Part shown: positions 5,851 through 21,649 of the stretch, piece by piece | How the letters are laid out: each line of letters starts with the position of its first letter | How positions within the stretch are numbered: position 1 is the first letter of the stretch | NCBI RefSeq assembly: GCF_947504135.1 | Contig: NZ_CANNGG010000002.1 | Span: 310,001 to 374,000, forward strand | Direction of reading: 5' to 3' | Length of the DNA: 64,000 bases | DNA from: an uncultured Tenacibaculum sp. | Lineage (GTDB): Bacteria; Bacteroidota; Bacteroidia; Flavobacteriales; Flavobacteriaceae | The notes under the pieces: model-generated | Databases searched by the model: none | The model's input: only the letters and a program-made list of their open reading frames with translations | Told to the model about the DNA's origin: nothing | Program-made: the position numbers and the translations under genes

Positions 5851-6213
5851 ATGAGCGAGAGAGTAGAACAAGAAGAAATCTTTTCACAGGTTTTAAGGGC
5901 AGGAAGAAGAACGTATTTTTTTGACGTTAGATCTACAAAGGCAGATGATTATTATTTAACAGTAACAGAAAGTAAAAAATTCACTCACGATGATGGATCT
6001 TTTCATTATCAGAAACATAAAATTTACTTATATAAAGAAGACTTTACTGATTTTACAGAAATGTTAAATAAAGCAACAGACTTTATTGTAAATGAAAAAG
6101 GTTCTGAAGTAATTAGTGAGCGTCACCAAAAAGATTATAAGAGAGAAGAAGGTGCTTCAACAGAGGCTACTTCTACAGAAAGTTTTACTGACGTTTCTTT
6201 TGAAGATATTTAA
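5851..6213 (+). CDS. DUF3276 / Pur-alpha-like nucleic-acid-binding protein
   Basis: This 120-residue protein matches the bacterial PUR family found across Bacteroidota. It opens with EEIFSQVLRAGRRTYFFDVR and has TESKKF and KIYLYKEDFTDF strands. One PUR repeat (about residues 8-85) is followed by an acidic, Ser/Thr-rich tail. The structurally known Bacteroides homologue is a PUR-domain fold; PUR proteins bind single-stranded nucleic acid. The cellular role here is unknown. It stands alone between its own candidate promoter and the terminator at 6321. Confidence 0.88.
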   Translation: MSERVEQEEIFSQVLRAGRRTYFFDVRSTKADDYYLTVTESKKFTHDDGSFHYQKHKIYLYKEDFTDFTEMLNKATDFIVNEKGSEVISERHQKDYKREEGASTEATSTESFTDVSFEDI

Positions 6214-6242
6214 AAGCAGAGGATAACTGTTTTGTATAAACC

Positions 6243-6270
6243 CTAAACACAATTTATAATTTGTGTTTAG
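6243..6270. repeat. 10-bp inverted repeat
   Basis: CTAAACACAA and TTGTGTTTAG are perfect inverted arms separated by 8 A/T bases, 30 bases after the DUF3276 stop. No T tail follows on the plus strand. It may be an RNA hairpin or a protein-binding palindrome. Confidence 0.6.
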
Positions 6271-6320
6271 AGTTTGGTTTGTGCATAAAAAAATCAATTC
6301 AAATTCAATTTACACTTAGA

Positions 6321-6359
6321 AAACCGCCAATTGTTGCACAGCAATTGGTGGTTTTTTTC
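6321..6359 (+). terminator. Intrinsic terminator after DUF3276 gene
   Basis: AAACCGCCAATTG and CAATTGGTGGTTTTTTT form a 10-12-bp stem with one G-U pair, followed by seven T. The minus-strand reading ends GGCGGTTTT, so it may also terminate leftward transcription from the small ORF at 6362-6493. Confidence 0.85.
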
Positions 6360-6361
6360 TT

Positions 6362-6493
6362 TTACACAAGCGATTTTATTTTGTTTGGTAGTTTTGATGC
6401 GAATTCAACCAGCTGCTTATACGTTAAAGTTCTACCTACTCTACTATTAAGTTTATCTTCACGCTGGTTAATCCTTAGTAATTTTTGTTTCAT
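6362..6493 (-). CDS. Possible 43-residue basic small protein
   Basis: An ATG-started frame too short for the ORF track. Its product begins MKQKLLRINQREDKLNSRVG and ends KLPNKIKSLV. It is basic and looks like real protein (amphipathic helix, no low complexity). It stops exactly against the terminator at 6321-6359, and a TATATTTA box lies upstream near 6507. It is the only plausible gene in the 383-base gap between DUF3276 and the isochorismate synthase; the rest of that gap holds the inverted repeat, the terminator and nothing else I recognise. No family is known to me. Confidence 0.4.
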   Translation of the reverse strand: MKQKLLRINQREDKLNSRVGRTLTYKQLVEFASKLPNKIKSLV

Positions 6494-6596
6494 AGGAAAG
6501 CGAGTTTTGAGTTCACCTAAATATAATAAAAAAAACTGAATTTCAGTAGGTTATGTTTATTTTGAGGTAAAGTATTTTGTAGAGTAGGTGTTTTTC

Positions 6597-7634
6597 CTAT
6601 AAAACTTTTTTCATAGTAGTAGTTTTTGCTACTGTTTCTTGCCATTCTTTTATAGCATTACTGTCGTTTGTAATACCACCACCAACATAAATATATACAA
6701 CATCGTTAGAAACCTCCATACAGCGAAGATTAACGAATAAATTACTTTCTCTATCGTCAATATTTAGTTCTCCTAAAAAACCAGTATAAAAACTTCTGTG
6801 ATAGTTTTCGTTATCTAAAATAAATTGTTTTGAAGCCTCTAAAGGCATTCCACAAACAGCAGGAGTAGGGTGTAAGCTTTTGATTAAAGAAGCAGTATTA
6901 GTTTTTAATTTCCCATTAAGAATGGTTCTTAAATGAAGTAATTTACCCGCTTTTATAGTTTTAATACCAGATGTTTTAATGTTTAAGGAAATATCAGATA
7001 ACCTATCAGTAATGTAGTCAGTTACAAATTGTTGTTCTTCTAATTCTTTTGGTTGCCAAGTAACATTAGTTGTACCATTGTAAACTTGAGTCCCTGCCAA
7101 AGCCATAGTAGTAAAACTTTTATCTTTAATACTAACTAGAGTTTCTGGGGTAGCTCCTAACCATAACCCAACTTTAGGATGATACCAAACATATACAAAA
7201 GCAGTAGGATAGTTACTCAGAAGTTTTTGAAAAGTTTTAATAAGATTAAAGTCAGATAACTCAATTTTTTCTTTTCTGGAAAGAACTACTTTTTTAAACT
7301 GCTGATTTTTAATAGCGGCTATTCCTTTTTCAACTAGTTGAATGTGGTTCTCTTCGGAAGCTGCATCAGGAGCGTGATTAGTGTTGTTAGTTTGAGTATC
7401 GTCAATAGTAACTTTTTCTTCAACATAAGTAGATTGATTTCTAGGAATTAAAATAGCTTTATCTCTGCTGTCAAACGGAGCAAAAATAAATCCACTCTCA
7501 TTATAATTTTCAGAAGTAATTACATCGTTGTTTTGTTGAAACCACCCTTTAATTATAGAACTGTTAGGCTTTCTGTAAGTAACAAAAGGTAATTCTTTGT
7601 TGAAGGCTTCTTTTATGTTTAAAAAAATACTCAA
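6597..7634 (-). CDS. menF: Isochorismate synthase / chorismate-binding enzyme
   Basis: This 345-residue chorismate-utilising enzyme converts chorismate to isochorismate, the entry step of menaquinone synthesis. The family core is clear: KKVVLSRKEKI, GATPETLV, MALAGTQ, SLHPTPAVCGMP, then RSFYTGFLGEL and NLFVNLRCMEV. It is shorter at the N-terminus than E. coli MenF, as usual in Bacteroidota. It overlaps the upstream hydrolase gene by 4 bases and shares an operon with it and a PaaI thioesterase, which fits quinone synthesis. Siderophore-type (EntC) function cannot be excluded, but no siderophore genes are near. Confidence 0.88.
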   Translation of the reverse strand: MSIFLNIKEAFNKELPFVTYRKPNSSIIKGWFQQNNDVITSENYNESGFIFAPFDSRDKAILIPRNQSTYVEEKVTIDDTQTNNTNHAPDAASEENHIQLVEKGIAAIKNQQFKKVVLSRKEKIELSDFNLIKTFQKLLSNYPTAFVYVWYHPKVGLWLGATPETLVSIKDKSFTTMALAGTQVYNGTTNVTWQPKELEEQQFVTDYITDRLSDISLNIKTSGIKTIKAGKLLHLRTILNGKLKTNTASLIKSLHPTPAVCGMPLEASKQFILDNENYHRSFYTGFLGELNIDDRESNLFVNLRCMEVSNDVVYIYVGGGITNDSNAIKEWQETVAKTTTMKKVL

Positions 7635-8482
7635 TCTAATTGTTGTATTAAATGTTCTTTAATCGTGTCAAATTTACTCCAAATAAATCCATGACCAGCA
7701 TCAGGAATGCTAATTAACTCAAACTGATTTTTAGGAAACTGCTCTTTCAAAAATAAAGAGTTTTCAATAGGTACAATCCAATCATTAGTTCCATGAATAC
7801 TTACTATGTTGTTAGGAGTAGATTTCCAGTTGTTTTCAAATAGTTGTAAATCTTGTTTATGAGATAACTTTTCCTTGCTCGCTTCTTGCCATATTGGAGG
7901 AACTAGCCATCGAGTAACTTTCCATTTGTATAAATTTAAAGACCACGGCATGGGTTCTACTTCACTACATATAGCAGGAGCCAGCAAAATTACTTTTCTA
8001 ACTTTTTCTTGTAAAGCTAAGGCAATAGGTCCGCCATAAGAATAACCTACAAGAATCGTTTTATCGGGGTTAATATTATGTAAAATATTCTTTAGCATGT
8101 CACGCTCAAAAGCAATACTTTCTTGAACCGGATTTTTGTCTTGAAAATTGTAACCAATTCTGTCGTATGAAATCATATTAGCTTTGCTAAGCAATACACT
8201 ATCCATCATATATTTTACAAAATCGGTAGAAGAACCTATCGTTCCGTGAACAAAAACCAGTGTAGGTAAGGTAGTATCTTTTATGATTGAAAGTTTTCTG
8301 TACTCAAACCCATTAAAGTTTTCATAAGTAAGGACAGGAGTAGCAGAGCTTCCAGAAAATTTTTCAAGTACTTTTACATCAGATTTAGGAGCAGAAAAAT
8401 TCCAGAATAAATAATATAAAACAAGGAAAAGCACAAAGAGAACAATTCCAGCGATTTTCAAGATTTTTTTTAGCAATTTCAT
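7631..8482 (-). CDS. Alpha/beta hydrolase, membrane-anchored
   Basis: This 283-residue protein has an N-terminal membrane anchor (about residues 8-28, ILKIAGIVLFVLFLVLYYLFW) and an alpha/beta-hydrolase fold. Visible features are the oxyanion region FVHGTIGSS, the nucleophile elbow GYSYGG, the late acid in HGTNDWIVP and the catalytic histidine in DAGHGFIW. It overlaps the isochorismate synthase by 4 bases and follows the thioesterase with a 1-base gap, so all three are one operon. A MenH-like role is possible from context, but the membrane anchor and motif details do not prove it. Confidence 0.82.
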   Translation of the reverse strand: MKLLKKILKIAGIVLFVLFLVLYYLFWNFSAPKSDVKVLEKFSGSSATPVLTYENFNGFEYRKLSIIKDTTLPTLVFVHGTIGSSTDFVKYMMDSVLLSKANMISYDRIGYNFQDKNPVQESIAFERDMLKNILHNINPDKTILVGYSYGGPIALALQEKVRKVILLAPAICSEVEPMPWSLNLYKWKVTRWLVPPIWQEASKEKLSHKQDLQLFENNWKSTPNNIVSIHGTNDWIVPIENSLFLKEQFPKNQFELISIPDAGHGFIWSKFDTIKEHLIQQLD

Positions 8483-8483
8483 G

Positions 8484-8900
8484 TTATTGTTTGTCTAAAA
8501 CAATATTGGTAATCTTACAAAGTGAAATCAAGTTATTATCCTCATCAACAATTCTCACTTCCCATAAATGTGTAGTTCTACCTTTATGAATCGCTTTAGC
8601 TGTAGCAAAAACATGTCCCTCTCGCTTACTTTTTACATGATTGATGCTCAGTTCAATCCCTTTAACAATTTTATTAGAGTCTCTTAAAAAAAAAGCGGAA
8701 GCACAACTACCAACCGATTCTGCCAAAGCAGCAGTAGCACCACCATGTAATATTCCATAGGGTTGATGTACTTTAGATGTCACAGGCATTTTTGCTGTAA
8801 TAAAATCATCTCCTACATCAACAAACTCTATCTCTAAAGTTTCCATCAAGGTGTTTTTGTTGTAACTGTTTAAGACTGTAAGAGATGCTTGCTTATTCAT
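8484..8900 (-). CDS. PaaI-family hotdog thioesterase
   Basis: This 138-residue single hotdog domain carries the PaaI signature HGGATAALAESVGS, with His, Gly-Gly and the catalytic acidic residue. It is followed by KGIELSINHVKSKREG and TTHLWEVRI strands. Family members hydrolyse acyl-CoA thioesters. Next to an isochorismate synthase, the likely substrate is 1,4-dihydroxy-2-naphthoyl-CoA in menaquinone synthesis, though this is inferred from context. It is the first gene of a three-gene minus-strand operon and shares a palindromic divergent promoter region with the gene at 8959. Confidence 0.87.
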   Translation of the reverse strand: MNKQASLTVLNSYNKNTLMETLEIEFVDVGDDFITAKMPVTSKVHQPYGILHGGATAALAESVGSCASAFFLRDSNKIVKGIELSINHVKSKREGHVFATAKAIHKGRTTHLWEVRIVDEDNNLISLCKITNIVLDKQ

Positions 8901-8920
8901 GGTAACTAAAAATTATCACC

Positions 8921-8938
8921 CAAAAATACGTATTTTTG
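8921..8938. promoter_or_regulatory. 18-bp palindrome holding two divergent -7 boxes
   Basis: CAAAAATACGTATTTTTG is a perfect palindrome. Read rightward its second half is TATTTTTG, and read leftward the first half is also TATTTTTG; both match TAnnTTTG. The leftward box serves the thioesterase operon and the rightward one the gene at 8959. Neither has a strong TTTG at the -33 position. Confidence 0.6.
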
Positions 8939-8958
8939 TACTGACAAAAAATGATAGA

Positions 8959-9459
8959 ATGTATAAAGTACGCGTAATTTTAGATACGAAAGAAGATGTA
9001 ATACGAACCCTGTTAGTAAACGAAAAAGCTTCATTAGAAAACCTACACTTTGATATTGCAAAAGCGTTTGGTTTTAACGGACAAGAAATGGCATCTTTTT
9101 ACCGTACCGATGAAGATTGGAATCAAGGTGAAGAAATTCCTTTATTCAATATGTCAGAAGCAGGAGAAGGAATTTCAATGGCAACATGTATTTTGCATGA
9201 AGCCTTACCAAACCAACACGATAAGTTAATTTATGTGTACGATTTCTTACAAATGTGGACGTTTTATGTAGAGGTAATAGAACAATCTAATGAAGAAGTT
9301 ACTGAAACAAAAATGATCTTGTCTGTAGGAGAAATCCCAGAGCAAGCTCCAGAAAAAGAATTTAAGGCAGAAGATCTTTCAAAAAATATAGATGATGAAA
9401 TTGATGATGAATTTAATAACTTTGAAAGCCTAGACGATTTTGACTTTGATAATTACTAA
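8959..9459 (+). CDS. Plasmid pRiA4b ORF-3-like family protein
   Basis: The protein has 166 residues from the ATG at 8959. The longer ORF in the track (from 8899) would begin upstream of the palindromic promoter and so is unlikely. The pRiA4b ORF-3 / IS1096 passenger-like domain is recognised by YKVRVILDTKEDV, LHFDIAKAFGF and YVYDFLQMWTFYVEVIE. A very acidic tail follows (DDEIDDEFNNFESLDDFDFDNY). Function of the family is unknown. It is 3 bases upstream of the Sua5/YciO gene and likely cotranscribed with it. Confidence 0.85.
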   Translation: MYKVRVILDTKEDVIRTLLVNEKASLENLHFDIAKAFGFNGQEMASFYRTDEDWNQGEEIPLFNMSEAGEGISMATCILHEALPNQHDKLIYVYDFLQMWTFYVEVIEQSNEEVTETKMILSVGEIPEQAPEKEFKAEDLSKNIDDEIDDEFNNFESLDDFDFDNY

Positions 9460-9462
9460 GCT

Positions 9463-10083
9463 ATGGCACAATTTATAAAACTGTATAATGACAACCCCAA
9501 TCCAAAAGAGATTGAAAAAATTGTAAAAGTTTTACAAAACGGTGGGTTGATTATCTATCCAACCGATACTGTTTATGGTTTAGGCTGTGATATTACCAAT
9601 ACTAAAGCACTAGAAAAAGTAGCAAGAATAAAAAAAGTAAAGCCAGAAAAAGCCAACTTCTCGTTTGTTTGTAACGACTTAAGCCATTTATCTGATTACG
9701 TAAAGCAAATAGATACTGCAACTTATAAAATTTTAAAAAGAGCTTTACCAGGTCCATATACTTTTGTATTACCTGGTAGTAATTCACTACCAAAAGCTTA
9801 TAAAAAACGAAAAACAGTAGGTATTCGTGTACCTGATAATAATATAGCAAGAGCTATTGTAGAAGCTTTAGGAAACCCGATTGTATCTACATCTATTTAC
9901 GATGAAGACGAAGTATTAGAATATACAACCGATCCTGAATTAATCTTCGAGAAATGGCAGAATATTGTTGATGTTGTGGTTGATGGAGGGTATGGAGATA
10001 ACCATGCATCTACTGTAATCGATTTAACAACCGATGAACCAGAAGTAATTCGTGAAGGAAAAGGAAGCTTAGATATTTTGTAA
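9463..10083 (+). CDS. Sua5/YciO/YrdC family protein (YciO-like)
   Basis: This 206-residue protein covers the YrdC-like fold. It has the nucleotide/carbamoyl-binding PTDTVYGLGCD, KPEKANFSFVC, LPGPYTFVLP and GIRVPDN segments and the STVIDLT end motif. Authentic TsaC/Sua5 makes threonylcarbamoyl-AMP for the t6A37 tRNA modification. The KANFSFVC-type core is closer to YciO, whose activity on this substrate is weak or uncertain. It lacks the C-terminal Sua5 domain. It lies between the pRiA4b ORF-3-like gene (3-base gap) and a secreted protein (1-base gap). Confidence 0.88.
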   Translation: MAQFIKLYNDNPNPKEIEKIVKVLQNGGLIIYPTDTVYGLGCDITNTKALEKVARIKKVKPEKANFSFVCNDLSHLSDYVKQIDTATYKILKRALPGPYTFVLPGSNSLPKAYKKRKTVGIRVPDNNIARAIVEALGNPIVSTSIYDEDEVLEYTTDPELIFEKWQNIVDVVVDGGYGDNHASTVIDLTTDEPEVIREGKGSLDIL

Positions 10084-10084
10084 A

Positions 10085-10666
10085 ATGAAAAGAAAAGGTT
10101 TTGTGTTATTCTTCTTCTTAGTGTGGATAAATTGCAATTCACAAGAGTTATTAGAGGGACAAAAGCTATGGAGTAATGATAACAAATTAACGGTTAACGA
10201 TTATAAATTAAAGAAACATGATGTTTACAATGAGTTGATTGTTAGTCAGTTCTTGATTTCACATCAAGTTAATGGATTCGATTTTTTTAAGAAGAATTTT
10301 AATAATAGAGTTTTAAATATTTTTGTGGGAAACGCTTCTTGGATTGATATAAATAATATTTCAAATATTAACAAACAGCTAGCATTTCAGCAACTTCAAT
10401 TTGATTTAGCAGAAATTTGTACTAGGCATTTTAGGAAAAGATTATTGTTGAATAAAAGAAAAATAGCAAAAGGCTTTACAGTTGTTAATAAAATTAGTAA
10501 TGAAATAATTGCTGAGTTTTCATCTAGAAGATTAAAACTTGTGAATGAAACAAAGGGAGGTAAAGATGAAAAGAAAGTTAAAGAATGGAGAGAAAAAATA
10601 AAAAAAGAATTGGAAGACCTGAACGAGTTTAGGTTTGAAAATAAAAAAAGAATAAAGCTTAAGTAA
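10085..10666 (+). CDS. Secreted protein of unknown function
   Basis: This 193-residue protein starts one base after the Sua5/YciO stop (TAAAATG), so it is probably cotranscribed. A signal peptide is visible (MKRKGFVLFFFLVWINCNSQ, cleavage near residue 20). The mature part begins with a Trp-containing ELLEGQKLWSNDNKLTVNDY, then mixed alpha/beta sequence, then a strongly basic, helical, lysine-rich tail with possible coiled coil (VKEWREKIKKELEDLNEF). The opening vaguely recalls DUF922-like secreted proteins, but I do not assign it. It converges on the glycosyltransferase gene with no gap. Confidence 0.7.
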   Translation: MKRKGFVLFFFLVWINCNSQELLEGQKLWSNDNKLTVNDYKLKKHDVYNELIVSQFLISHQVNGFDFFKKNFNNRVLNIFVGNASWIDINNISNINKQLAFQQLQFDLAEICTRHFRKRLLLNKRKIAKGFTVVNKISNEIIAEFSSRRLKLVNETKGGKDEKKVKEWREKIKKELEDLNEFRFENKKRIKLK

Positions 10667-11668
10667 CTATTTTTTTAACATATTGAATTTTTTTCTTCCT
10701 TTAGTGTAATACTGCCAAACTATAGACTTGTGTTCGTAGTAATTCGATTTTTTAGGAGATTCTTTTCTTTTTTTTATGAACTTAAAAAGGTGCGCATAAA
10801 AACTAAAATGAGCTTTTAAAATAGCAAACAAATGATTAGGTTTTCCTTCTAATAAAAATTTAAGGCTTGCTAAACCGTCTAAGATCAAACGAGAAAAAAT
10901 GATTGGAAACAATTTCGTAGAAGGTAAGTTCTTAACCAAGTTGAGTAAACTATTCCTAAAATTTAAAAACGTTTTTCTAGGATTTAAAGTATCCAATGTA
11001 GCACCACCAACATGATATACAGTGGATGCTCCTACATATTTTATAGTATGCCCACTATTTTTAGCACGCCAACACAAATCAATCTCTTCCTGATGTGCAA
11101 AAAAATCTTCATCAAAACCTTGTAGTTGATGAAAAACTCCAGAGCGGATAAAAAAACAAGCACCAGATGCCCAAAAAATTTCGGTAGTATCGTTAAACTG
11201 TCCGTTATCTGTTTCCAAGTCGCTAAACAAACGACCGCGACAATACGGATATCCAAAAGCATCAATAAAACCACCACCTGCACCAGCATATTCAAACTTA
11301 GATTTGTCTTTAAAGTCTAAAATCTTCGGTTGGATAATCGCCGTATTAGGTTCCTTTTTAAAAGTATCAATAATGGGAGTTAACCAGTTCTTGGTAACCT
11401 CAATGTCAGAATTTACTAAACAATATACATCTGCATCAATATGCTGTAAGGCATCGTTGTAACCTTTTGCATAACCGCTATTTTCTGAGTTCTGTACAAT
11501 TTTTACAGTAGGAAAATGTTGCTCTACAAATGCAATAGAGTCATCTGTAGAAGCATTGTCTGCGACATACACTTCCGCTTCTTCAGAACTAAAATTAACG
11601 ACAGAAGGTAAAAACTGCTCAAGCAATTTTTTTCCGTTCCAGTTTAATATGACGATAGCTGTTTTCAA
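10667..11668 (-). CDS. Family 2 glycosyltransferase
   Basis: This 333-residue GT2 (GT-A fold) enzyme transfers a sugar from a nucleotide sugar. Visible motifs are AIVILNWNGKKLLEQFLPS (nucleotide binding), YVADNASTDDS, the DXD-like CLVNSDIEV, FWASGACFFIRS and the acceptor/base motif FDEDFFAHQEEIDLCWRAK. A helical, lysine-rich tail follows. The pattern is that of rhamnosyltransferase-like GT2 enzymes of cell-surface glycan synthesis; donor and acceptor are not readable. No other polysaccharide genes are adjacent, so its pathway is unclear. Confidence 0.9.
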   Translation of the reverse strand: MKTAIVILNWNGKKLLEQFLPSVVNFSSEEAEVYVADNASTDDSIAFVEQHFPTVKIVQNSENSGYAKGYNDALQHIDADVYCLVNSDIEVTKNWLTPIIDTFKKEPNTAIIQPKILDFKDKSKFEYAGAGGGFIDAFGYPYCRGRLFSDLETDNGQFNDTTEIFWASGACFFIRSGVFHQLQGFDEDFFAHQEEIDLCWRAKNSGHTIKYVGASTVYHVGGATLDTLNPRKTFLNFRNSLLNLVKNLPSTKLFPIIFSRLILDGLASLKFLLEGKPNHLFAILKAHFSFYAHLFKFIKKRKESPKKSNYYEHKSIVWQYYTKGRKKFNMLKK

Positions 11669-11714
11669 GACGGCAAATTTACAGTTTATAAATGAAATTC
11701 TAGTTAAAAAGCAT

Positions 11715-11766
11715 GAGTCATTCTGTGTTTCGTCATTCCGAACGAGGTATGATGAGGAATCTCATA
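11715..11766. repeat. Dispersed intergenic repeat, copy 1
   Basis: Contains CGTCATTCCGAACGAGG and GAGGAATCTCAT, preceded by a partial second GTCATTCTG. The core matches the CGTCATT(C/G)CGAG...GAATCT family at 17350, 18378 and 28804. It lies between the glycosyltransferase and the HsdR_N-like gene. Confidence 0.65.
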
Positions 11767-11844
11767 AGTTAAGTAATTCTCATGTTTAAGACTTCGTCTT
11801 CCATTTTGGTAGTGAAGCAATTTTTCGGTTTGAAATAAAGGTAT

Positions 11845-12288
11845 TTACTTGTACTCAGGAATATCTCTTAAAAACACATAGGTTTCGTTCTCTTTATCGA
11901 GCATACAAAAAAAGTGTTGTAGTCCGTTGGTTACGATGAGGTAATCAGCATCAAGCTTTAAGTTATAACGAGCAATCTGATCAAAGGTATCTTGGTTAAT
12001 TTTTATATGTGGTGCTTTACATTCTACAATAATATTCGGATGTCCGTCAGAAGTAAAAACCACAATATCGGTACGTTTTTTAAGGTTGTTGATAACCAAT
12101 TGTTTTTCAATAGCGATTAATGAAACAGGGTAGTTTCTCTCTTGAATTAACCATTGCACAAAATGTTGGCGTACCCATTCCTCGGGAGTTAACACCACAT
12201 ATTTTTTTCTCAAATTATCAAAAATAAGCGTCTTATTTTCGTTACTTTTGAGCTTGAATGTGTAGCTAGGAAGGTTGAGCTTTTGCAT
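11845..12288 (-). CDS. HsdR N-terminal-like PD-(D/E)xK nuclease-fold protein
   Basis: This 147-residue protein corresponds to the type I restriction enzyme R-subunit N-terminal domain alone. It has WVRQHFVQWLIQERNYP followed by RTDIVVFTSDGHPNIIVECKAP, giving the catalytic D-x(n)-E-x-K set, then QIARYNLKLDADYLIVTNG. No helicase domain or hsdM/hsdS follows. In Flavobacteriaceae this stand-alone protein is typically divergent from holA, as here, so it is likely a conserved chromosomal nuclease-fold protein and not a broken restriction system. Its substrate is unknown. Confidence 0.83.
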   Translation of the reverse strand: MQKLNLPSYTFKLKSNENKTLIFDNLRKKYVVLTPEEWVRQHFVQWLIQERNYPVSLIAIEKQLVINNLKKRTDIVVFTSDGHPNIIVECKAPHIKINQDTFDQIARYNLKLDADYLIVTNGLQHFFCMLDKENETYVFLRDIPEYK

Positions 12289-12319
12289 AACTCAAAAATA
12301 ATTATTTAAATTTATTAAA

Positions 12320-12769
12320 GTGCGATTTAACTTTTTCATTTTATTATTTTTAGTAGTAACTCAACTACAAGCTCAAGACTTTTATAAAACCCCATCAGGT
12401 AAAAAGTTTCATACAGCTACTTGTAGAATGGTAGAGAATGTATCGAAAAAGGTAAATGAAGATGAAATTAACGCTTATGGCTTAACTGCTTGTAAAATTT
12501 GTAAACCTTCTTATGTGGGAAGAACAGCTGGTTTTACGAATAAATCTGTAGGAAAATCTTATACGGTAAGATGTAAAGGGGTTACGAAAAAGGGAACACG
12601 GTGTAAGCATCAAACAAAGCTAGCAAACGGATTTTGTTATCAACATACTAAACAATCAAATACTAAAAGTACAAAATCGTATAGTTCAACTTGTGGAGCA
12701 AGAACAAAATCTGGTGGTTCTTGTAAAAGAAAAGTAAAAGGAGGAGTACGATGTTATCAACATCGTTAA
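12320..12769 (+). CDS. Secreted Cys-rich protein with two DUF5763-like zinc-finger-like repeats
   Basis: This 149-residue protein starts at GTG 12320 and has a clear signal peptide (FFILLFLVVTQLQAQ). A His/Cys segment follows (KFHTATCRMVEN ... GLTACKICKPSY), like the Ada/metal-binding-type KYHxxxC fold. Two DUF5763-like repeats come next: CKGVTKKGTRCKHQTK...FCYQH and CGARTKSGGSCKRKV...RCYQH. Each repeat has Cys-x8-Cys and a closing C-YQH. The spacing suggests metal-binding knuckles, but secretion would make disulfides an alternative. Function is unknown. Confidence 0.78.
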   Translation: MRFNFFILLFLVVTQLQAQDFYKTPSGKKFHTATCRMVENVSKKVNEDEINAYGLTACKICKPSYVGRTAGFTNKSVGKSYTVRCKGVTKKGTRCKHQTKLANGFCYQHTKQSNTKSTKSYSSTCGARTKSGGSCKRKVKGGVRCYQHR

Positions 12770-12789
12770 AAATAGAATAAATAACACTT

Positions 12790-12817
12790 CCTCTCCTTCG
12801 GAGAGGACTGAGGAGAG
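12790..12817. repeat. Intergenic stem-loop repeat before holA
   Basis: CCTCTCC-TTC-GGAGAGG is a perfect 7-bp stem, followed by ACTGAGGAGAG which partly repeats the arm. No T run follows. It lies in the 53-base gap before holA and resembles GC-richer mobile intergenic repeats known from flavobacteria. Confidence 0.6.
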
Positions 12818-12822
12818 TCTTT

Positions 12823-13824
12823 ATGAACGAAATTAAATCTATCATATCCGATATAAAAGGAGGTAACATCAAACCCATTTATTTTTTAATGGGAGAAGAA
12901 CCGTATTACATTGATAAAATTTCAGATTATATTGAAGACAATGTGTTAGATGAATCTGAAAAAGGATTCAATCAAGTAGTTATGTACGGTCGTGATGTGT
13001 CGATAGAAGAAATTGTATCGTCGGCAAAACGTTTTCCGATGATGGCAGAAAAACAGGTGATTATTGTTAAAGAAGCGCAAGATTTAAGCCGTACGATTGA
13101 TAAAATAGAGTCGTATGCTGCCAATCCGCAACCGACTACCGTATTGGTGTTTAACTACAAATATAAAAAGCTCGATAAACGTAAAAAGGCGTACAAAGCC
13201 ATTGCTAAAAGCGGACTTATTTACGAGAGTAAAAAACTATACGATAATCAAGTAGCCGATTGGATTCGTCAGGTTTTGGGAGGAAAGAAGTTTAATATCG
13301 AGCCAAAAGCAGCTCAAATGTTGGTAGAGTTTTTAGGAACTGATCTGAGCAAGATTAGTAACGAACTTGATAAATTAACTTCAGTATTACCTGCAGAAAC
13401 TATTATTAGCGATAAGCATATTGAAGAAAATATCGGTATTTCTAAAGATTTTAACAATTTTGAGTTGCGTAAAGCAGTAGGGCAGCGTGATGTGGTAAAA
13501 GCGAACAGGATTATCAATTATTTTGCTCAAAACCCTAAGAATAATCCGTTAGTAATGACAATTTCCTTGCTAAATAGTTTTTTTACACAGTTATTGATGT
13601 ACCACGGATTAAAAGATAAATCGAAAGCTTCGGTTGCTAAAAACTTAGGGGTAAACCCTTATTTTGTAGACGACTACGTAAACGCAGCTCGCAACTACCC
13701 GATGCGAAAAGTATCGCAAATTATAGCCTTATTACGTGATGCCGATGTAAAAAGCAAAGGAGTTGGTGCTAACCAAACCCATGCTGATATTTTAAAAGAA
13801 TTGTTGTTTAAGATTTTGCATTAA
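12823..13824 (+). CDS. holA: DNA polymerase III subunit delta
   Basis: This 333-residue clamp-loader delta subunit matches the family along its length. It has IKPIYFLMGEEPYYIDKI (N-terminal RecA-like fold), RRFPMMAEK-type motif (AKRFPMMAEKQVIIVKEAQDL), ISNELDKLTSVL in domain II, and the C-terminal collar helices with NPYFVDDYVNAARNYP. Delta binds the beta sliding clamp and opens it during loading. It diverges from the HsdR_N-like gene, with the DUF5763 protein between. Confidence 0.95.
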   Translation: MNEIKSIISDIKGGNIKPIYFLMGEEPYYIDKISDYIEDNVLDESEKGFNQVVMYGRDVSIEEIVSSAKRFPMMAEKQVIIVKEAQDLSRTIDKIESYAANPQPTTVLVFNYKYKKLDKRKKAYKAIAKSGLIYESKKLYDNQVADWIRQVLGGKKFNIEPKAAQMLVEFLGTDLSKISNELDKLTSVLPAETIISDKHIEENIGISKDFNNFELRKAVGQRDVVKANRIINYFAQNPKNNPLVMTISLLNSFFTQLLMYHGLKDKSKASVAKNLGVNPYFVDDYVNAARNYPMRKVSQIIALLRDADVKSKGVGANQTHADILKELLFKILH

Positions 13825-13918
13825 CAAATTTAGTCGCTTTTTTAAAAAATAAGTATGAGAGAATAATTCGATTCTTCTTTAATGACTTTTAATAGTTGTT
13901 AGCTATAAGAATAAGACT

Positions 13919-14908
13919 TTATTTTTCAATTACATCTTTGAACATTTTTGTATTTAAGGCAACAAAAATATTTTGACTTGCTTTTTCGATTTCTTCTTTA
14001 GGTAACTTAGTTTTCTTTAAAAAATAATTTATCATTTTTCTTTTTGTCCTATTGTTTTTATAACCGATTCTTGGAGAAATAACTTCTTCTCCTTTTGTAA
14101 AAATGATTATTGGAAAATTATTATTTCTTAATTTATCTCCGATTAACTCCCACCACATATTGTCAGAGTCTCCAAAAGAAGTTCCAAAAATACAAATGAG
14201 GCTAGCTTCTTTAATTTTTGATTTGAATAGATTATCTATAGTGTGTCCGTAAGCTAAATTACATTTCTCTTTTACTATAGCTTCTAAAACATCAAGGTTT
14301 TGGTGAAATTTTTTGTTTTTAAGCTGAGAAACATCATTAACACCTAAAACCATTCTATTGTCTATAAAACCGTGAATATGTTCTACTCCTCGCAATGTAA
14401 CAGGGACATTATCTCTAATATGATGCCCTATAGAAATATTTTTCTTTTCTTCAATTATTTTCTCAATAATGGTTGTGTAATTGAATGTAAAGATGTCAAC
14501 TATCCAAGTGCTGTTTGAATAGCTATTTTTGAATGTTTTAATTTTATTATTGTCAGCAGTAGGAAGGTATACTTCTGGCTTGACTAGGTTTTCAAAGAAT
14601 TTTTCTTTATTTATAGTTGAAAAGTCAAATTTTGATTCCTCTTTTTTTAAATATTCGGCAAGTTGTTCTCCAATATCTTCAAAAACTTCATCAAAATCAT
14701 CAATAGTTTCAAATTCTTCTGTATACTGTCCTAAAGCCAATTCTAAATCAGACCAATTTTTATAATTATTAGAAATATTGTTTTTTAAATTATTAATATT
14801 GTCACTAGACGATTCGATGCTCTTGTAAAAGTCGTAAAAATCTTTATAACTTGTGTTTAAATCAAGATTCAAGTCAAATCCATTTCCTATTATATGTAGT
14901 ATTTTCAA
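13919..14908 (-). CDS. AbiH family protein (phage abortive infection)
   Basis: This 329-residue protein begins with the AbiH signature MKILHIIGNGFDLNLDLNTSYKDFYDF, a nucleotide-binding-like GNGFD motif. Other AbiH blocks follow: WSDLELALGQY, IDIFTFNYT-like WIVDIFTFNYTTIIE, HIHGFI, GVND and CIFGTSFGDSDNMWW. Lactococcal AbiH gives phage resistance by abortive infection; the mechanism of the family is not settled. It lies 16 bases after an ankyrin gene on the same strand, forming a two-gene unit inserted between holA and an ABC-F gene. The unit is visibly more A/T-rich and lysine/asparagine-rich than its neighbours. Confidence 0.88.
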   Translation of the reverse strand: MKILHIIGNGFDLNLDLNTSYKDFYDFYKSIESSSDNINNLKNNISNNYKNWSDLELALGQYTEEFETIDDFDEVFEDIGEQLAEYLKKEESKFDFSTINKEKFFENLVKPEVYLPTADNNKIKTFKNSYSNSTWIVDIFTFNYTTIIEKIIEEKKNISIGHHIRDNVPVTLRGVEHIHGFIDNRMVLGVNDVSQLKNKKFHQNLDVLEAIVKEKCNLAYGHTIDNLFKSKIKEASLICIFGTSFGDSDNMWWELIGDKLRNNNFPIIIFTKGEEVISPRIGYKNNRTKRKMINYFLKKTKLPKEEIEKASQNIFVALNTKMFKDVIEK

Positions 14909-14924
14909 TATATTTTCTACTTTG

Positions 14925-15530
14925 TTATATATTTTCGAGTTTGGTTTTTTCTTTCCATGAAATATACTTATTGGTGTATTTTTCTCCTAGTCTGTCTATT
15001 GTTCCAATATTATTTTCTAATAATAATTTTACAGTACTCCATTTATTTTTTTCTGCTGCCCAATAAACAGCTCTTTCTGAACCATTGTCGTAATCTTGAA
15101 TGTCATTGTCAATTAAAAATTGTAATAATTCAATTTTACCTGTGCTAGCAGCACTACAAAAAATTCCATTAAAATCTTCAAAATAACCGAGTATTAATTC
15201 CATTATTTCTATGTTTCCTTTTGAAGCAGTCCATTGTATCGCAGATGTTTCATTCTTATATTCGTCAGAATTATTAATTAAATATTTGACTAAATTTAAA
15301 TCTTCTGCATCACAAGTATAAGCTAGTAGCATTTTTTTTGCCGCTGATTTATGTGAAATTCCATTTTCGAGAAAATAGATAATAATTTCACTATAATTTT
15401 TTCTGCCCACTATATCAATACACCAATCATCTTGTATGTGGATATTAACTCCATATTTTATACAAGTTTTTATGTTTCTGAAGTTTCCTTCAAAACATGA
15501 TTCTATAAAACTTTTTTCTTGATCTGTCAT
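14925..15530 (-). CDS. Ankyrin-repeat protein
   Basis: The protein has 201 residues when started at MTDQEKSFIE (15530); the track start is four codons upstream. About five degenerate ankyrin units are seen: FRNIKTCIKYGVNIHIQDDW, NYSEIIIYFLENGI, DLNLVKYLINNSD, NIEIMELILGYF, KIELLQFLIDND and KWSTVKLLLENN. There is no signal peptide or membrane segment, so it is cytoplasmic and probably binds another protein. It precedes abiH by 16 bases and is probably cotranscribed, so a partner, immunity or sensor role for AbiH is possible but untested. Confidence 0.85.
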   Translation of the reverse strand: MTDQEKSFIESCFEGNFRNIKTCIKYGVNIHIQDDWCIDIVGRKNYSEIIIYFLENGISHKSAAKKMLLAYTCDAEDLNLVKYLINNSDEYKNETSAIQWTASKGNIEIMELILGYFEDFNGIFCSAASTGKIELLQFLIDNDIQDYDNGSERAVYWAAEKNKWSTVKLLLENNIGTIDRLGEKYTNKYISWKEKTKLENI

Positions 15531-15540
15531 AATTAAATAC

Positions 15541-15640
15541 AACTAGTTTATATACATCATAAAATCACTAAAACTTTCTTTTTAAGGACGGCTCATAGGA
15601 GATTTTAGCAATTTTTTGTTCTCTCAAATATAACAAAATT
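15541..15640. other. Cassette-boundary-like element upstream of ankyrin-AbiH unit
   Basis: Minus strand 15631-15604 reads ATATTTGAGAGAACAA then AAAATTGCTAAA. The same motif, with one substitution and one indel over 28-29 bases, lies at 61505-61533 upstream of another accessory gene. Both are followed about 60 bases later by an A/T-rich ATATAAACTAGTT or ATATAACAAGTTT segment just before the gene start. This suggests a shared boundary element. Confidence 0.5.
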
Positions 15641-15714
15641 AACTACTGTATAAATGAAAGTTTTTGCCAACTTATTAACCGTTTTTGTTAATTTCGTCGC
15701 TTAAAATTATTTGT

Positions 15715-17346
15715 ATGATTACGGTAGATCAATTAACGGTTGAGTTTAGTGGTAACACCTTGTTTAGCGACGTTTCGTTTGTAATTAATGAAAACGATAA
15801 AATTGCTTTAATGGGTAAAAATGGGGCAGGAAAATCCACTATGATGAAAATTATTGCGGGAGTTTCTAATCCTACCAAAGGAGGTGTTCGTAGTCCGAAA
15901 GATACTGTAATCGCTTATTTACCGCAGCATTTGTTAATGGAAGACAATTGCACGGTAAAAGAAGAGGCTTCTAAAGCTTTTGAATCGGTTTTTGCGATGA
16001 AAGCTGAAATGGAAGATCTCAACAAACAATTAGAAACCCGTACCGATTACGAATCGGATGATTATATGAAAATCATCGAGCGTGTATCGGATTTAGGTGA
16101 AAAATTCTACGCGTTAGAGGAAGTAAACTACGAAGCAGAAGTAGAAAAAGCCTTAAAAGGGTTAGGATTTAAGCAAGAAGATTTTGAGAGAGCAACCTCT
16201 GAGTTTAGTGGGGGTTGGCGTATGCGTATTGAGTTGGCGAAAATCTTACTACAAAAACCCGATTTAATTTTATTAGACGAGCCTACCAACCACGTAGATA
16301 TCGAGTCGGTAATTTGGTTGGAAAACTTCTTATTAAACAAAGCCAAAGCGGTAGTGGTAATTTCGCACGATAAAGCCTTTATCGATAATATTACCAACCG
16401 AACCATTGAGGTAACGATGGGAACCATTCACGATTACAAGGCGAACTATTCGCACTATTTAGAGTTGCGTAAAGAGCGTCGTGCACATCAGTTAAAAGCG
16501 TATCAAGAACAACAAAAGTTTATTGCCGATACCAAAGCGTTTATCGAGCGTTTTAAAGGAACCTATTCAAAAACAAACCAAGTAGCTTCGCGTGAGCGTA
16601 TGTTAGAAAAATTGGTTCCTGTAGAAATTGATGAAGTAGATACTTCAGCATTAAAACTGCGTTTTCCGCCTTCACCACGTTCGGGAGATTATCCTGTAAA
16701 AGTGGAAGGATTGACCAAGAAATATGATGATTTAACCGTGTTTAAAGACGCGAGTTTTTCCATAGCTCGTGGTGAAAAAGTATCGTTTGTAGGAAGAAAC
16801 GGAGAAGGAAAATCAACCATGATTAAAGCAATTATGGGAGAAATTGATTTTGAAGGAGAGTGTGGTTTAGGGCACAACGCTAAAGTGGGATACTTTGCAC
16901 AAAATCAAGCTTCGCTGTTAGATCCTGAATTAACAATTTTCCAAACCGTAGATGAGGTTGCTGAAGGAGATATCCGAACGCAAATCAAAAATATATTAGG
17001 ACGTTTTATGTTCTCGGGAGATGATTTAGAAAAGAAAGTAAAAGTACTTTCTGGAGGAGAGAAAACACGTTTGGCAATGGTAAAACTGTTGTTAGAACCT
17101 GTAAACGTGTTGATTTTAGATGAGCCTACGAACCATTTAGATTTAAAATCAAAAGAGGTTATTAAAGAAGCCTTATTACACTTCGACGGAACCTTAATTT
17201 TAGTATCACACGACCGTGATTTCTTACAAGGATTATCTCAAAAAGTATTTGAATTTAAAGACCAACGTGTTATAGAACACTTTGAAACGATTGATGCTTT
17301 TTTAGGGCGTAACAATATCAAAGCGTTAAAGGAGATAGATTTATAA
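15715..17346 (+). CDS. ABC-F family ATPase
   Basis: The protein has 543 residues from the ATG at 15715; the track adds ten unlikely residues. Two ABC domains lack any membrane segment, which defines ABC-F. Domain 1 has GKNGAGKST, the signature FSGGWRMR and LLDEPTNHVD. Domain 2 has GRNGEGKST, LSGGEKTR and LILDEPTNHLD. The charged linker between them (about residues 240-320) contacts tRNA/ribosome in characterised members. It is most likely a translation factor of the YbiT/EttA/Uup class, not a resistance exporter. A -33 TTTTTG and -7 TAATTTCG (15689-15696) precede it, with the start placed 18 bases further on. Confidence 0.92.
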   Translation: MITVDQLTVEFSGNTLFSDVSFVINENDKIALMGKNGAGKSTMMKIIAGVSNPTKGGVRSPKDTVIAYLPQHLLMEDNCTVKEEASKAFESVFAMKAEMEDLNKQLETRTDYESDDYMKIIERVSDLGEKFYALEEVNYEAEVEKALKGLGFKQEDFERATSEFSGGWRMRIELAKILLQKPDLILLDEPTNHVDIESVIWLENFLLNKAKAVVVISHDKAFIDNITNRTIEVTMGTIHDYKANYSHYLELRKERRAHQLKAYQEQQKFIADTKAFIERFKGTYSKTNQVASRERMLEKLVPVEIDEVDTSALKLRFPPSPRSGDYPVKVEGLTKKYDDLTVFKDASFSIARGEKVSFVGRNGEGKSTMIKAIMGEIDFEGECGLGHNAKVGYFAQNQASLLDPELTIFQTVDEVAEGDIRTQIKNILGRFMFSGDDLEKKVKVLSGGEKTRLAMVKLLLEPVNVLILDEPTNHLDLKSKEVIKEALLHFDGTLILVSHDRDFLQGLSQKVFEFKDQRVIEHFETIDAFLGRNNIKALKEIDL

Positions 17347-17349
17347 AAA

Positions 17350-17426
17350 CGTCATTGCGAGTGTAACGAAGAAATCTGTTAGTCGATGGAGAGATTACTT
17401 CAGTTGTAACCTCCTTCGAAATGACG
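17350..17426. repeat. Dispersed intergenic repeat, copy 2
   Basis: Begins CGTCATTGCGAGTGTAACG and ends TTCGAAATGACG, so its termini are inverted (CGTCATT ... AATGACG). It starts four bases after the ABC-F stop and fills most of the gap to the M90 peptidase remnant. Confidence 0.75.
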
Positions 17427-17440
17427 AGTAGAGGGAGCGG

Positions 17441-18311
17441 TTAGTTCACCCCACAACACTTTTTATACTTCACTCCGCTATCACAAGGACAAGGATCGTT
17501 TCTGGAAATATCAAGGCGTTTTAAATGCAGGTTCATGTCGTCCATATCTTGTTTAAAGATTTGCTCTAGCAACGTATAAAGCTCAGGGTGTTTTCTGGCT
17601 AATAACTTCGGATGCTCAAAAAAGTATTCGCTTGCTACCGAGAAAAATTCTGCTTTGTTAGTTCCGCCATACGGATTGATATCGGAAGCGTCGTTGTATA
17701 TTTCTTCAATCTTTTTTGTTGATTAAATCTACCCACGGAATGCTGTATTGTTTTTCTAATAATACATGCGGAACTCCGTCAATGTTTCCATCTAGTTTAT
17801 CAATTAAATGCACAAACTCATGGATAGCAGTGTTTTTTTTATCGGTTTCATTCTCAAAACCTAAATGTAAAGCAGGTTTCGATAAAACCATTTTTCCTTC
17901 TAAATATCCGTTACCTACCATTCCTAAAATTCTTCGGTTGTCTCCTTCGGTTTCAAAATGCTCGTTGAACATAGCAGGGTATAAAATAATTTCTTTGATA
18001 TTAGGATAACGCCATTCAGGAAAATTAAAAATAGGAATTACAGCACTAGAAGCTATCAGTAATTTATCGGTAATTGTAACCGTAACATCAACGCCAATAA
18101 CTTTATGATTTAACAAGAATTCAAAAACTTTAAACTCAAATAATTCTTTTTCATCAGGAGTGAGTGCGTTGTAAAAAGCGACTTTTTTAGTTAAAATAAC
18201 TTTCCATTTGTTTGGAAAAGGAGTTGTAGGTTGTTTCCACTTTGTTGTTGAGGTCCTTTTTTTGAATACAAGAAAAATACCTACGAGTATAATTATAGAT
18301 AAATAAGTCAT
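17441..18311 (-). pseudogene. M90/MtfA-like zinc peptidase with SEC-C tail, broken by a +1 frameshift
   Basis: The upstream part (18311 to 17706) encodes an N-terminal membrane helix and an MtfA-like domain with the zinc motif HEFVHLIDKLDG. It then stops after WVDLINKKD. Shifting one base in a run of six A (plus-strand T run 17712-17717) opens 89 more codons, ending at 17441. These read [23 protein letters not shown] and continue with [11 protein letters not shown] and a C-terminal SEC-C motif, [18 protein letters not shown]. The fused product is the normal MtfA layout, and the lost part should contain the third zinc ligand (Glu). It is either a real inactivating mutation, slippage-dependent expression, or a homopolymer sequencing error. 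Confidence 0.85.
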
Positions 18312-18377
18312 TTAAAATAGCATTGAGACTACTAGTAATTTTTTTTTCAAATATATAAAAATAGGGTAGAGTACAAG

Positions 18378-18481
18378 CGTCATTGCTAATGGAGTGAGGC
18401 AATCTGTATATCGTGTACCGAGTAAAAGATAGCCACGTCGTTCATTTCGATTTCGCTCAATGAGCCTCCTCGCTATGACGT
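18378..18481. repeat. Dispersed intergenic repeat, copy 3
   Basis: Begins CGTCATTGCTAATGGAGTG and contains GAGGCAATCTG. It ends CCTCGCTATGACG, giving inverted termini as in copy 2. It fills much of the gap after the M90 gene and abuts the decayed small gene at 18488. Confidence 0.7.
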
Positions 18482-18487
18482 TTATGT

Positions 18488-18743
18488 ATGGTCATTCTAA
18501 TCAAGTTCTTGAAATTTCCAAAAGAAGAGGTGTTAAACAAAAAGAAAGCAATAGTAAATCGTATTTTAGATTTACAGCGGGCTTTGTCTTTAGGAAATTT
18601 AGAAAGAGAAAGGTAAAAATATTTTTATGGATGTGGATGGTTTAAAGAGAGTAGAAACAACCGTTTGGGGTATTACTGATGCCTCGGTAATTTTAAAAGA
18701 GTCTACTATTATTCCATTAGAAAGAATTGTAAGAGTTGCATAA
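18488..18743 (+). pseudogene. Decayed small gene (two frames)
   Basis: Two adjacent frames look like one small protein. The first runs from ATG 18488 (or GTG 18530): VLNKKKAIVNRILDLQRALS then LGNLERER and stop at 18614. The second, in the next frame from ATG 18627, reads MDVDGLKRVETTVWGITDAS, then VILKESTIIPLERIVRVA and stop at 18743. A +1 shift near 18610 joins them into a ~75-residue protein. The second half looks like a small beta domain. The ORF-track frame 18460-18645 is a different frame and has no protein-like features. The family is unnamed to me; a terminator follows directly. Confidence 0.5.
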
Positions 18744-18745
18744 AT

Positions 18746-18777
18746 AAAAAAGACCTCGAAATTTCGAGGTCTTTTTT
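18746..18777. terminator. Bidirectional terminator between small gene and gcvP
   Basis: AAAAAAGACCTCGAAATTTC continues into GAGGTCTTTTTT as a perfect palindrome. It lies 17 bases past the gcvP stop (minus strand) and just after the small plus-strand gene, and can serve both. Confidence 0.92.
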
Positions 18778-18793
18778 ATAGGTGTTATATTTA

Positions 18794-21649
18794 TTAAGCT
18801 TCTGCTTCCATATAATCTTCAATAGGATTACAAGAGCAAATTAAGTTACGGTCACCAAAAGCATCGTCTACACGGCGTACCGAAGGCCAAAACTTATTGT
18901 CTGCAATATAGTCTAAAGGAAATGCTGCTTGTTTACGAGAGTATGGTAAATCCCACTCATCAGCAGTTAACATTTCTTGCGTATGTGGTGCATTTTTAAG
19001 CGGGTTGTTAGGATTTTCTTTACTCGCTTCGGCAATCTCTTTCCTAATAGAGATTAACGCATCACAAAAACGGTCTAATTCTGCTACACCTTCCGATTCG
19101 GTAGGCTCTACCATAATTGTACCTGCTACAGGGAAAGATACCGTAGGCGCGTGGAATCCGTAGTCCATTAAACGTTTCGCGATATCAGTAACTTCAATTC
19201 CGTTTTGTTTATACTCACGACAGTCTAAAATCATTTCGTGAGCAGCACGGTTCATTTCACCAGTATATAAAGTGCTAAAGTGTCCTTTTAAACGCTCTTT
19301 AATATAGTTTGCGTTTAAAATAGCATTCTTAGTAGAGTTTGTTAACCCGTCAGCACCTAACATTGTAATGTATCCGTAAGAAATTAAACATACCAATGCA
19401 GAACCCCAAGGAGCTGCTGAAATAGCTGTAATGGCATTGTCACCACCAGTTGCTATTACAGGGTTGGTAGGTAAATACGGAACTAATTGAGGAGCTACAC
19501 AAATTGGTCCAACACCTGGTCCACCACCACCGTGAGGAATCGCAAATGTTTTGTGTAAGTTTAAGTGACAAACATCGGCGCCAATGGTTGCAGGGTTTGT
19601 TAATCCTACCTGTGCATTCATGTTTGCACCGTCCATATATACTTGTCCGCCATTATCGTGGATAATTTGCGTAATTTCTTTAATAGCCTTTTCAAATACT
19701 CCGTGAGTAGATGGGTAAGTTACCATTAAAGCAGCTAAATTATCAGCATGTTTTTCAGCTTTAGCACGTAAATCTTCTACATCGATGTTTCCTCTTTCAT
19801 CAGTTTTGGTAACGACCACTTTCATACCCGCCATAACAGCAGATGCAGGGTTCGTTCCGTGAGCAGAAGCAGGAATTAAACAGATGTTTCTGTTGGTGTC
19901 TCCATTTGCTTCGTGATAAGCTCTAATAGTCATTAATCCAGCAAATTCACCTTGTGCACCTGAGTTAGGTTGTAAAGAAGTACCTGCAAAACCAGTAATA
20001 ACATTTAATTGGTTTTCAAGGTTGTTTAACATGATTTGGTATCCTTCTGCTTGATTTAATGGTACAAATGGGTGGATATTTCCCCATTGAGGAGTACTCA
20101 ACGGTAACATTTCAGAAGCAGCATTTAACTTCATGGTACAAGACCCTAAAGAAATCATTGAGTGATTTAATGCTAAATCTTTACGTTCTAACTTTTTAAT
20201 ATAACGCATCATGTCAGTTTCTGATTGATACGTGTTAAATATTTCGTTATCTAAGAAAGAAGTAGCTCTCTTTACGTCTGCTGGAATTACATCAGCTGTT
20301 GCAAATTCAGTAACTAAAATATCTTTGATATTGAATGCTTGTTCGAAACAATCAACAATTTCGTTGATTTCTTTTAAACCTACTGTTTCGTTTACAGAGA
20401 TTGAAACATACTCTGCATCGATGTAGTTAAAGTTGATTCCGTTTGCTTCTGCTACTGGGCGTAACTTGTCAGCTTCAACTTCAACTAAAATAGTATCAAA
20501 ATAAGCACTATTTTTTTGTTTGAAACCTAAATCGTTTAACGCTTTTGCTAAGGTTGTAGTGCTTGTGTGTACACGATCTGCAATGTATTGTAAACCATCT
20601 TTACCGTGGTATACAGCATACATACCTGCCATAACAGCTAATAATACCTGTGCAGTACAAATGTTTGAAGTTGCTTTTTCACGTTTAATGTGTTGCTCAC
20701 GTGTTTGTAATGCCATACGTAACGCACGACCACCGTCAACATCTTTTGTAACTCCAATAATACGACCAGGAATGCTACGTTTGTAAGCTTCTTTAGTAGC
20801 AAAATATCCAGCGTGAGGTCCTCCGTATCCTAAAGGAATACCAAAACGTTGTGTAGTACCTACTACAACGTCAGCACCAAATTCAGCAGGAGCTTTTAAT
20901 TTTACTAATGATAAAATATCAGCAGCAACAGCTACTTTAATGTTATTTGCGTTACAGTTAGCAACGAAATCAGTATAATCATATACTTGTCCGTGCTTAC
21001 CAGGATATTGTACGATAGCACCAAAGAATTCTTCTGAGAAGTTAAACTCTTCGTGGTTACCAACAACTAATTCAATTCCGATAGGAATAGCACGTGTTTG
21101 TAATACTGATAAGGTTTGTGGTAAAATTTCTTCTGAAACAAAAAACTTGTTTACGTTAGCTTTCTTTTGTGCTCTTTCACGAACATCAAATAATAAAGCC
21201 ATAGCTTCAGCAGCAGCAGTACTTTCGTCTAATAACGAAGCATTAGCTAACTCCATTCCTGTTAAATCACAAATCATAGTTTGGTAATTTAACAAGGCTT
21301 CTAAACGTCCTTGTGCTATTTCAGCTTGGTAAGGGGTATAGGCAGTATACCATCCTGGGTTTTCTAAAATATTACGTTGGATAACACTAGGTAAAATAGC
21401 TTCGTGATATCCTAAACCTATATAACTTTTAAAAACTTTGTTTTTTGCACCTAATTCGTTAATGTGATTTAGGTATTCGTATTCGCTCATTGCCGGGGCT
21501 AAATCAAGCTCTTTTTGTAAACGAATATCGTCGGGAATAGTTTCATAAATCAATTGGTCTAAACTCTCAATGCCAATTGTTTGAAGCATTTGATCCTGAT
21601 CTTTAACACGAGGACCTATATGCCTTAGTTGAAATGAATTTGTGTTCAT
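18794..21649 (-). CDS. gcvP: Glycine dehydrogenase (decarboxylating), P protein
   Basis: This 951-residue homodimer-type P protein of the glycine cleavage system decarboxylates glycine on pyridoxal phosphate and passes the aminomethyl group to the H protein lipoyl arm. Both halves are present. The N-terminal half has RHIGP and [30 protein letters not shown], here split from quoted limits by family recognition. The C-terminal half has the PLP-lysine motif [18 protein letters not shown]. Length is normal. Other gcv genes are not in the window, so it is a monocistronic gene, with its own terminator and candidate promoter. Confidence 0.97.

Follow-up and report, generated by a model that had tools for sequence, protein, structure and literature searches.

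Two genes on the reverse strand occupy the interval bounded by holA and an ABC-F ATPase gene in the 64,000-nucleotide stretch of Tenacibaculum DNA analysed here (the window), which is part of a genome of 2.62 Mb in 16 contigs. The AbiH-family gene (13919..14908, − strand) starts with TTG and encodes 329 amino acids, of which residues 4–270 match PF14253. The ankyrin-repeat gene lying upstream of it (14925..15530, − strand) starts with ATG and encodes 201 amino acids recognizable as an ankyrin protein by Pfam Ank_2 and an AF2 model, with no catalytic domain recognised. The two are separated by a gap of 16 nucleotides (14909..14924) which, as read from the sequence, is compatible with co-transcription. 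The conserved borders, namely holA for DNA polymerase III delta on the left (12823..13824; TIGR01128, E 6e-81) and the ABC-F gene on the right (15715..17346; product beginning MITVDQ), are both encoded on the + strand. The ankyrin ORF could be extended to a TTG at 15542, but its 60% identical homologue (L032) begins at an ATG, and the start at 15530 is therefore right. The −7 promoter element of Bacteroidota has the consensus TAnnTTTG. A script scan found a match, the weak promoter candidate TATATTTG (15625..15632, − strand) ca. 95–100 bp upstream of the ankyrin ATG, and no full −33/−7 match.

Both genes are real and chance ORFs are ruled out; each is the only copy of its kind in the genome. 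Their GC contents are 26.7% (AbiH) and 27.2% (ankyrin), compared to 34.8% for holA, 37.3% for the ABC-F gene and 32.2% for the whole window. The composition of the two genes is thus foreign-looking, and their location at an accessory-gene site is supported. A first-pass annotation of the DNA had described an ankyrin protein and AbiH 16 bases apart on one strand between holA and ABC-F, in sequence more A/T-rich than the flanks; the ORFs and coordinates are confirmed, as is the compositional contrast (27% versus 35–37% GC). A 19-nt near-tandem repeat (84%) at 14908–14945 spans the ankyrin stop codon and the AbiH start region and may be due to chance in A/T-rich DNA. To the left of holA, a stand-alone protein matches HsdR of type I restriction systems in its N-terminal domain only (11845–12288; HSDR_N_2, E 6.8e-42), and no other restriction-modification genes were found among the ORFs listed beside it.

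The AbiH protein matches PF14253 with an E value of 2.5e-40 and 139.7 bits (cut-off 30.9) over profile positions 1–259 of 260, which bears out the earlier family assignment. In this nearly complete coverage of the model and in its nature as a single-gene accessory element it resembles the abortive infection protein AbiH of Lactococcus lactis S94 and its homologues in S. thermophilus, from which it differs by a weak match to the PADLOC AbiH model (E 0.0026), its occurrence in another phylum and the ankyrin gene directly upstream. AbiH was cloned in 1996 and its mechanism was still listed as unknown in 2025; in S. thermophilus it inhibits Vansinderenvirus phages, again by an unknown mechanism (PMC12322248). 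The protein carries the motifs GNGFD (residues 8–12), FNYT with N143, HIHG with H179 and GTSFGDSD (residues 242–249). The AF2 model, based on an alignment of 48 relatives of 26–77% identity, has a mean pLDDT of 94.1 and a pTM of 0.92. A Foldseek search of the PDB returned SIR2-containing phage-defence proteins (ThsA, SIR2-HerA, DSR2) as all of its first eight matches (probabilities 0.96–1.00), led by ThsA (E 4.4e-5, probability 1.00), with the sirtuin CobB lower in the list; the TM-scores are moderate (~0.4). Sequence comparison with the PDB gave no match for the single AbiH query and, for the profile of 48 relatives, the SIR2 NADase KomC as a weak best match (E 0.077), in whose alignment NYT of AbiH lies opposite NYD and HIHG opposite FHG.

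All 48 AbiH proteins have N143, Y144 and H179, which correspond by motif to N112/H152 of ThsA and N133/Y134/H171 of DSR2. This equivalence to SIR2 catalytic residues is based on motif, spacing and the KomC alignment rather than on coordinate superposition, the distance between the Asn and the His being 36 residues in AbiH versus 40 in ThsA and 38 in DSR2. The exchanges N112A and H152A abolish NAD+ cleavage by ThsA (PMC7272460), and DSR2 uses N133, Y134, D135 and H171 (PMC11263360). AbiH thus shares the predicted fold, the Asn-Tyr and His of the NAD+ pocket and the Asn-to-His spacing with the SIR2 NADase effectors ThsA of Thoeris, DSR2, SIR2-HerA and KomC. In contrast, the Asp following Asn-Tyr in the active enzymes (D114 in ThsA, D135 in DSR2) is absent, its place being taken by Thr (T145) in 47 of the 48 AbiH proteins and by Ser in one; no SLOG, HerA or C-terminal sensor part is recognised, nor is there a conserved partner gene. 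The match of the AF2 model to SIR2 NADases (those of Thoeris, SIR2-HerA and DSR2) and the invariance of the Asn and His make it very probable that AbiH acts as a defence effector, and the phage-defence precedent invoked in the first-pass annotation gains the backing of a predicted SIR2-type fold. The model further suggests that it is probably SIR2-like and NAD+-consuming, with the reservation that, owing to the Thr in place of Asp, NAD+ chemistry is not assured. As AbiH was predicted to be a Sir2 enzyme as early as 2012 (PMC3506569), the SIR2 assignment is not new; a predicted SIR2 fold in which Asn and His are invariant and Thr replaces the usual Asp nevertheless lends itself to a direct test of the mechanism.

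The ankyrin protein matches Pfam Ank_2 (E 3.4e-13) and exceeds the cut-off of several Ank models. Its best AF2 model (pLDDT 84.4) is a solenoid of helix pairs, and its structural matches in the PDB are ankyrin repeat proteins. The gene is rare: one close relative (60% identity) was found among 168 congeners, in genome G442, while 400 family genomes gave only two weak generic matches and 398 genomes of the order none elsewhere at E ≤ 1e-10. No AbiH match was detected in G442, where the ankyrin gene lies downstream of a small tyrosine recombinase as one of many short same-strand ORFs spaced by repeat copies (core AACCGAT). The array (L215, G442:C3:51000-70900, 6000–19901) comprises about 25 such ORFs with degenerate repeats in between (core AAAGTCTAAATAACCGATCACTTAAA, ~20 copies), two duplicated gene units of 98–99% identity and three copies of the hairpin-like GTTAGCCTGGTCCACTTCGTGGAACTTGGCCAACTAAC, and is immediately preceded by an XRE-like gene and one for a tyrosine recombinase of 198 aa. 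It resembles an integron-like array of cassettes whose site is unusual. Its repeat AACCGATCACT is absent around the AbiH and ankyrin genes of the window.

Recurrence of the pair was assessed at 123 AbiH loci, including that of the window, collected from 400 family genomes, 99 congeners and a species-level genome collection, with flanks of 1.5–5 kb where available and a few loci sharing a genome. At the ~120 other loci, queries with the window ankyrin, a generic ankyrin consensus and a repeat HMM detected no ankyrin neighbour. With the HMM the window gene scores E 1.8e-30, a value to be read in the light of the model's being trained partly on the window's own repeats, so that its power to detect distant ankyrins lacks independent proof; its search extends to AbiH neighbours beyond the families listed in a Pfam scan of 66 neighbour genes, in which a lone ankyrin match could be hidden because the 25 most populous families are given. 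Among these listed families are TIR domain genes, and distant AbiH relatives adjoin HsdR or type IIG/III-like restriction genes. No ankyrin gene was detected even beside the closest AbiH relatives (77%, 74%, 68%, 66% and 63% identity), the first two of which (L135 and L136, the latter from Flavobacterium aquaticum) have unrelated neighbours; close relatives come mostly from Flavobacteriaceae, 46 of 400 genomes of which contain AbiH. Plasmid records contain one distant AbiH (Mammaliicoccus, 29.8%) and no ankyrin relative, neither protein has a relative among the viral contigs, and a viral structure library gave no match at E ≤ 0.001. AbiH relatives without ankyrin and the G442 ankyrin gene without AbiH demonstrate that both genes exist independently; among the sampled loci their pairing was seen once, and the comparison suggests that it is probably incidental.

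Chromosomal defence hotspots are known in other bacteria, and the interval between holA and ABC-F shares with them conserved borders and a changing defence-type cargo. In the genus sample of 168 species genomes, holA is 72–99% identical in 59 congeners and ABC-F 89–98% identical in those which have it within 10 kb of holA. This arrangement differs from a typical hotspot in that it occurs in just 6 of 57 fetched congener regions besides the window. The cargo lying between the two border genes consists of a GajA/AriA-like AAA ATPase with a small gene in G453, a YobI/Tmn-like NTPase (PADLOC Tmn, E 2.4e-87) in G416, several small ORFs in G419 and other genes in G401, G402 and G442. Downstream of holA, G424 and G477 carry TssD/Hcp modules, followed in G424 by PDC-S06; ABC-F was not found in the sequence fetched there, so that only the holA side is common with the window site. 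Owing to this varied cargo beside holA, we regard the site as a turnover spot; by sequence comparison the holA–ABC-F gap turns over and is prone to house defence genes in some close relatives, without being a locus fixed throughout the genus, and as such is a place to seek further defence genes in these bacteria. Neither AbiH and its Sir2 prediction nor hotspots of defence genes in general are new; the details of the holA–ABC-F spot and of the isolated ankyrin neighbour we have not seen described, no literature search having been aimed at the spot.

Several observations concern the borders of this site. The last 62 codons of holA are duplicated ~5 kb downstream of holA in G424 (L078, 5261–5446) and G477 (L079, 5005–5187), where the copy bounds the TssD effector-type module, an arrangement suggestive of a recombination or integration event at the 3′ end of holA in these two genomes. 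Short ORFs built of tandem repeats, e.g. repeated HAVISATHAVVSSE or WVADTTAWVANTTA, adjoin the cargo in three congeners (oriented coordinates L080 3111–3449, L081 2480–2881, L078 8587–8979) and are likely tandem-repeat DNA, not genes. The similarity of AATTTAGTCGCTT and AATTTCGTCGCTT at the borders of the window insert is not claimed as a target-site direct repeat, because two congeners whose cargo differs have a similar stretch (AATTTCGCCGCTTAAAAT) ahead of ABC-F and because the sequence after holA is not conserved.

Taken as a whole, we consider it somewhat probable that a solo AbiH effector and an independently acquired ankyrin gene stand side by side at a turnover spot. According to this scenario, the insert would be accessory cargo whose functional core is a single-gene defence effector, a predicted SIR2-like enzyme. 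Phage infection might trigger AbiH, which would then most likely consume or otherwise attack NAD+ and stop the infected cell before phage release. The upstream ankyrin gene would be a separately acquired single gene, probably sharing a transcript with AbiH through its position, and its product most likely a binding protein acting independently, such as an orphan polymorphic-toxin or T6SS immunity protein, rather than a partner of AbiH. The proposal is weakened by the Thr replacing the Asp of NYD, by the TM-scores and by the PADLOC E value already given.

The first-pass annotation had read the two genes as a module and a new pairing, with the ankyrin protein as phage sensor or as inhibitor or immunity partner controlling AbiH, and had named co-occurrence in other genomes as its check. 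The common strand, short gap and shared low GC with the ankyrin gene first speak for such a unit, as do the protein-binding character of ankyrin solenoids and the thin sampling of a rare family, and spacing and composition would equally fit acquisition of both genes in one step; adjacency by itself is, however, weak evidence for an ankyrin regulator of AbiH. With no recurrence at ~120 loci, unrelated genes around close AbiH relatives and an ankyrin homologue in a genome lacking AbiH, we consider a true two-gene module improbable, and the pairing is of little weight unless an interaction is demonstrated. In its most specific form the ankyrin protein would serve a SIR2-like AbiH NADase exclusively, as its sensor or inhibitor, in a rare two-gene abortive infection system comparable to the two-component SIR2 systems; such a system appears very improbable to us. 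A possible but doubtful reading, which sharpens the ankyrin half of the scenario preferred above, would have the ankyrin gene confer immunity to a polymorphic or type VI toxin, as an orphan with no relation to AbiH. Imm-ank proteins are known from polymorphic toxin systems, heterogeneous polyimmunity loci included (PMC3482391), and the window protein resembles them in being a bacterial protein of ankyrin repeats that stands alone within an accessory region; the TssD/Hcp modules at the holA-flanking spot and the position of the G442 homologue within an array of small ORFs point the same way. The window copy differs, however, in having no recognised toxin or other immunity genes alongside (no toxin domain among the neighbouring genes profiled), no toxin gene is recognised beside the G442 copy, whose neighbouring ORFs were read and mostly not profiled, and none of the array genes has been demonstrated to be an immunity protein. 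The view of AbiH and the ankyrin gene as decaying passengers devoid of present function, which we regard as unlikely, could draw on the TTG start of AbiH, on a relative in G136 interrupted by an in-frame stop (L005, 1492–2466) and on the occurrence of AbiH in only 46 of 400 family genomes. Yet both ORFs are intact, every invariant AbiH residue is retained, and the relatives L135 and L136 likewise start with TTG.

Integron attC sites as flanks of the window unit are not supported: the attC-like score downstream of AbiH was reached by 22 of 40 shuffles, that upstream of the ankyrin gene by one of 40 but with arms of low complexity, and the gap between the two genes is too short for such a site. 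Several AbiH genes of Flavobacteriaceae are preceded by a GTTAGCAACAAGGC-like and followed by a AGCCCAGTTGCTAACAA-like sequence resembling attC half-sites (L142, 5980–6150 and 4840–5000; also L135, L139, L140, L143 and L145), and the downstream site of L142 is the only one whose attC-like score lies clearly above that of the shuffles (0/40).
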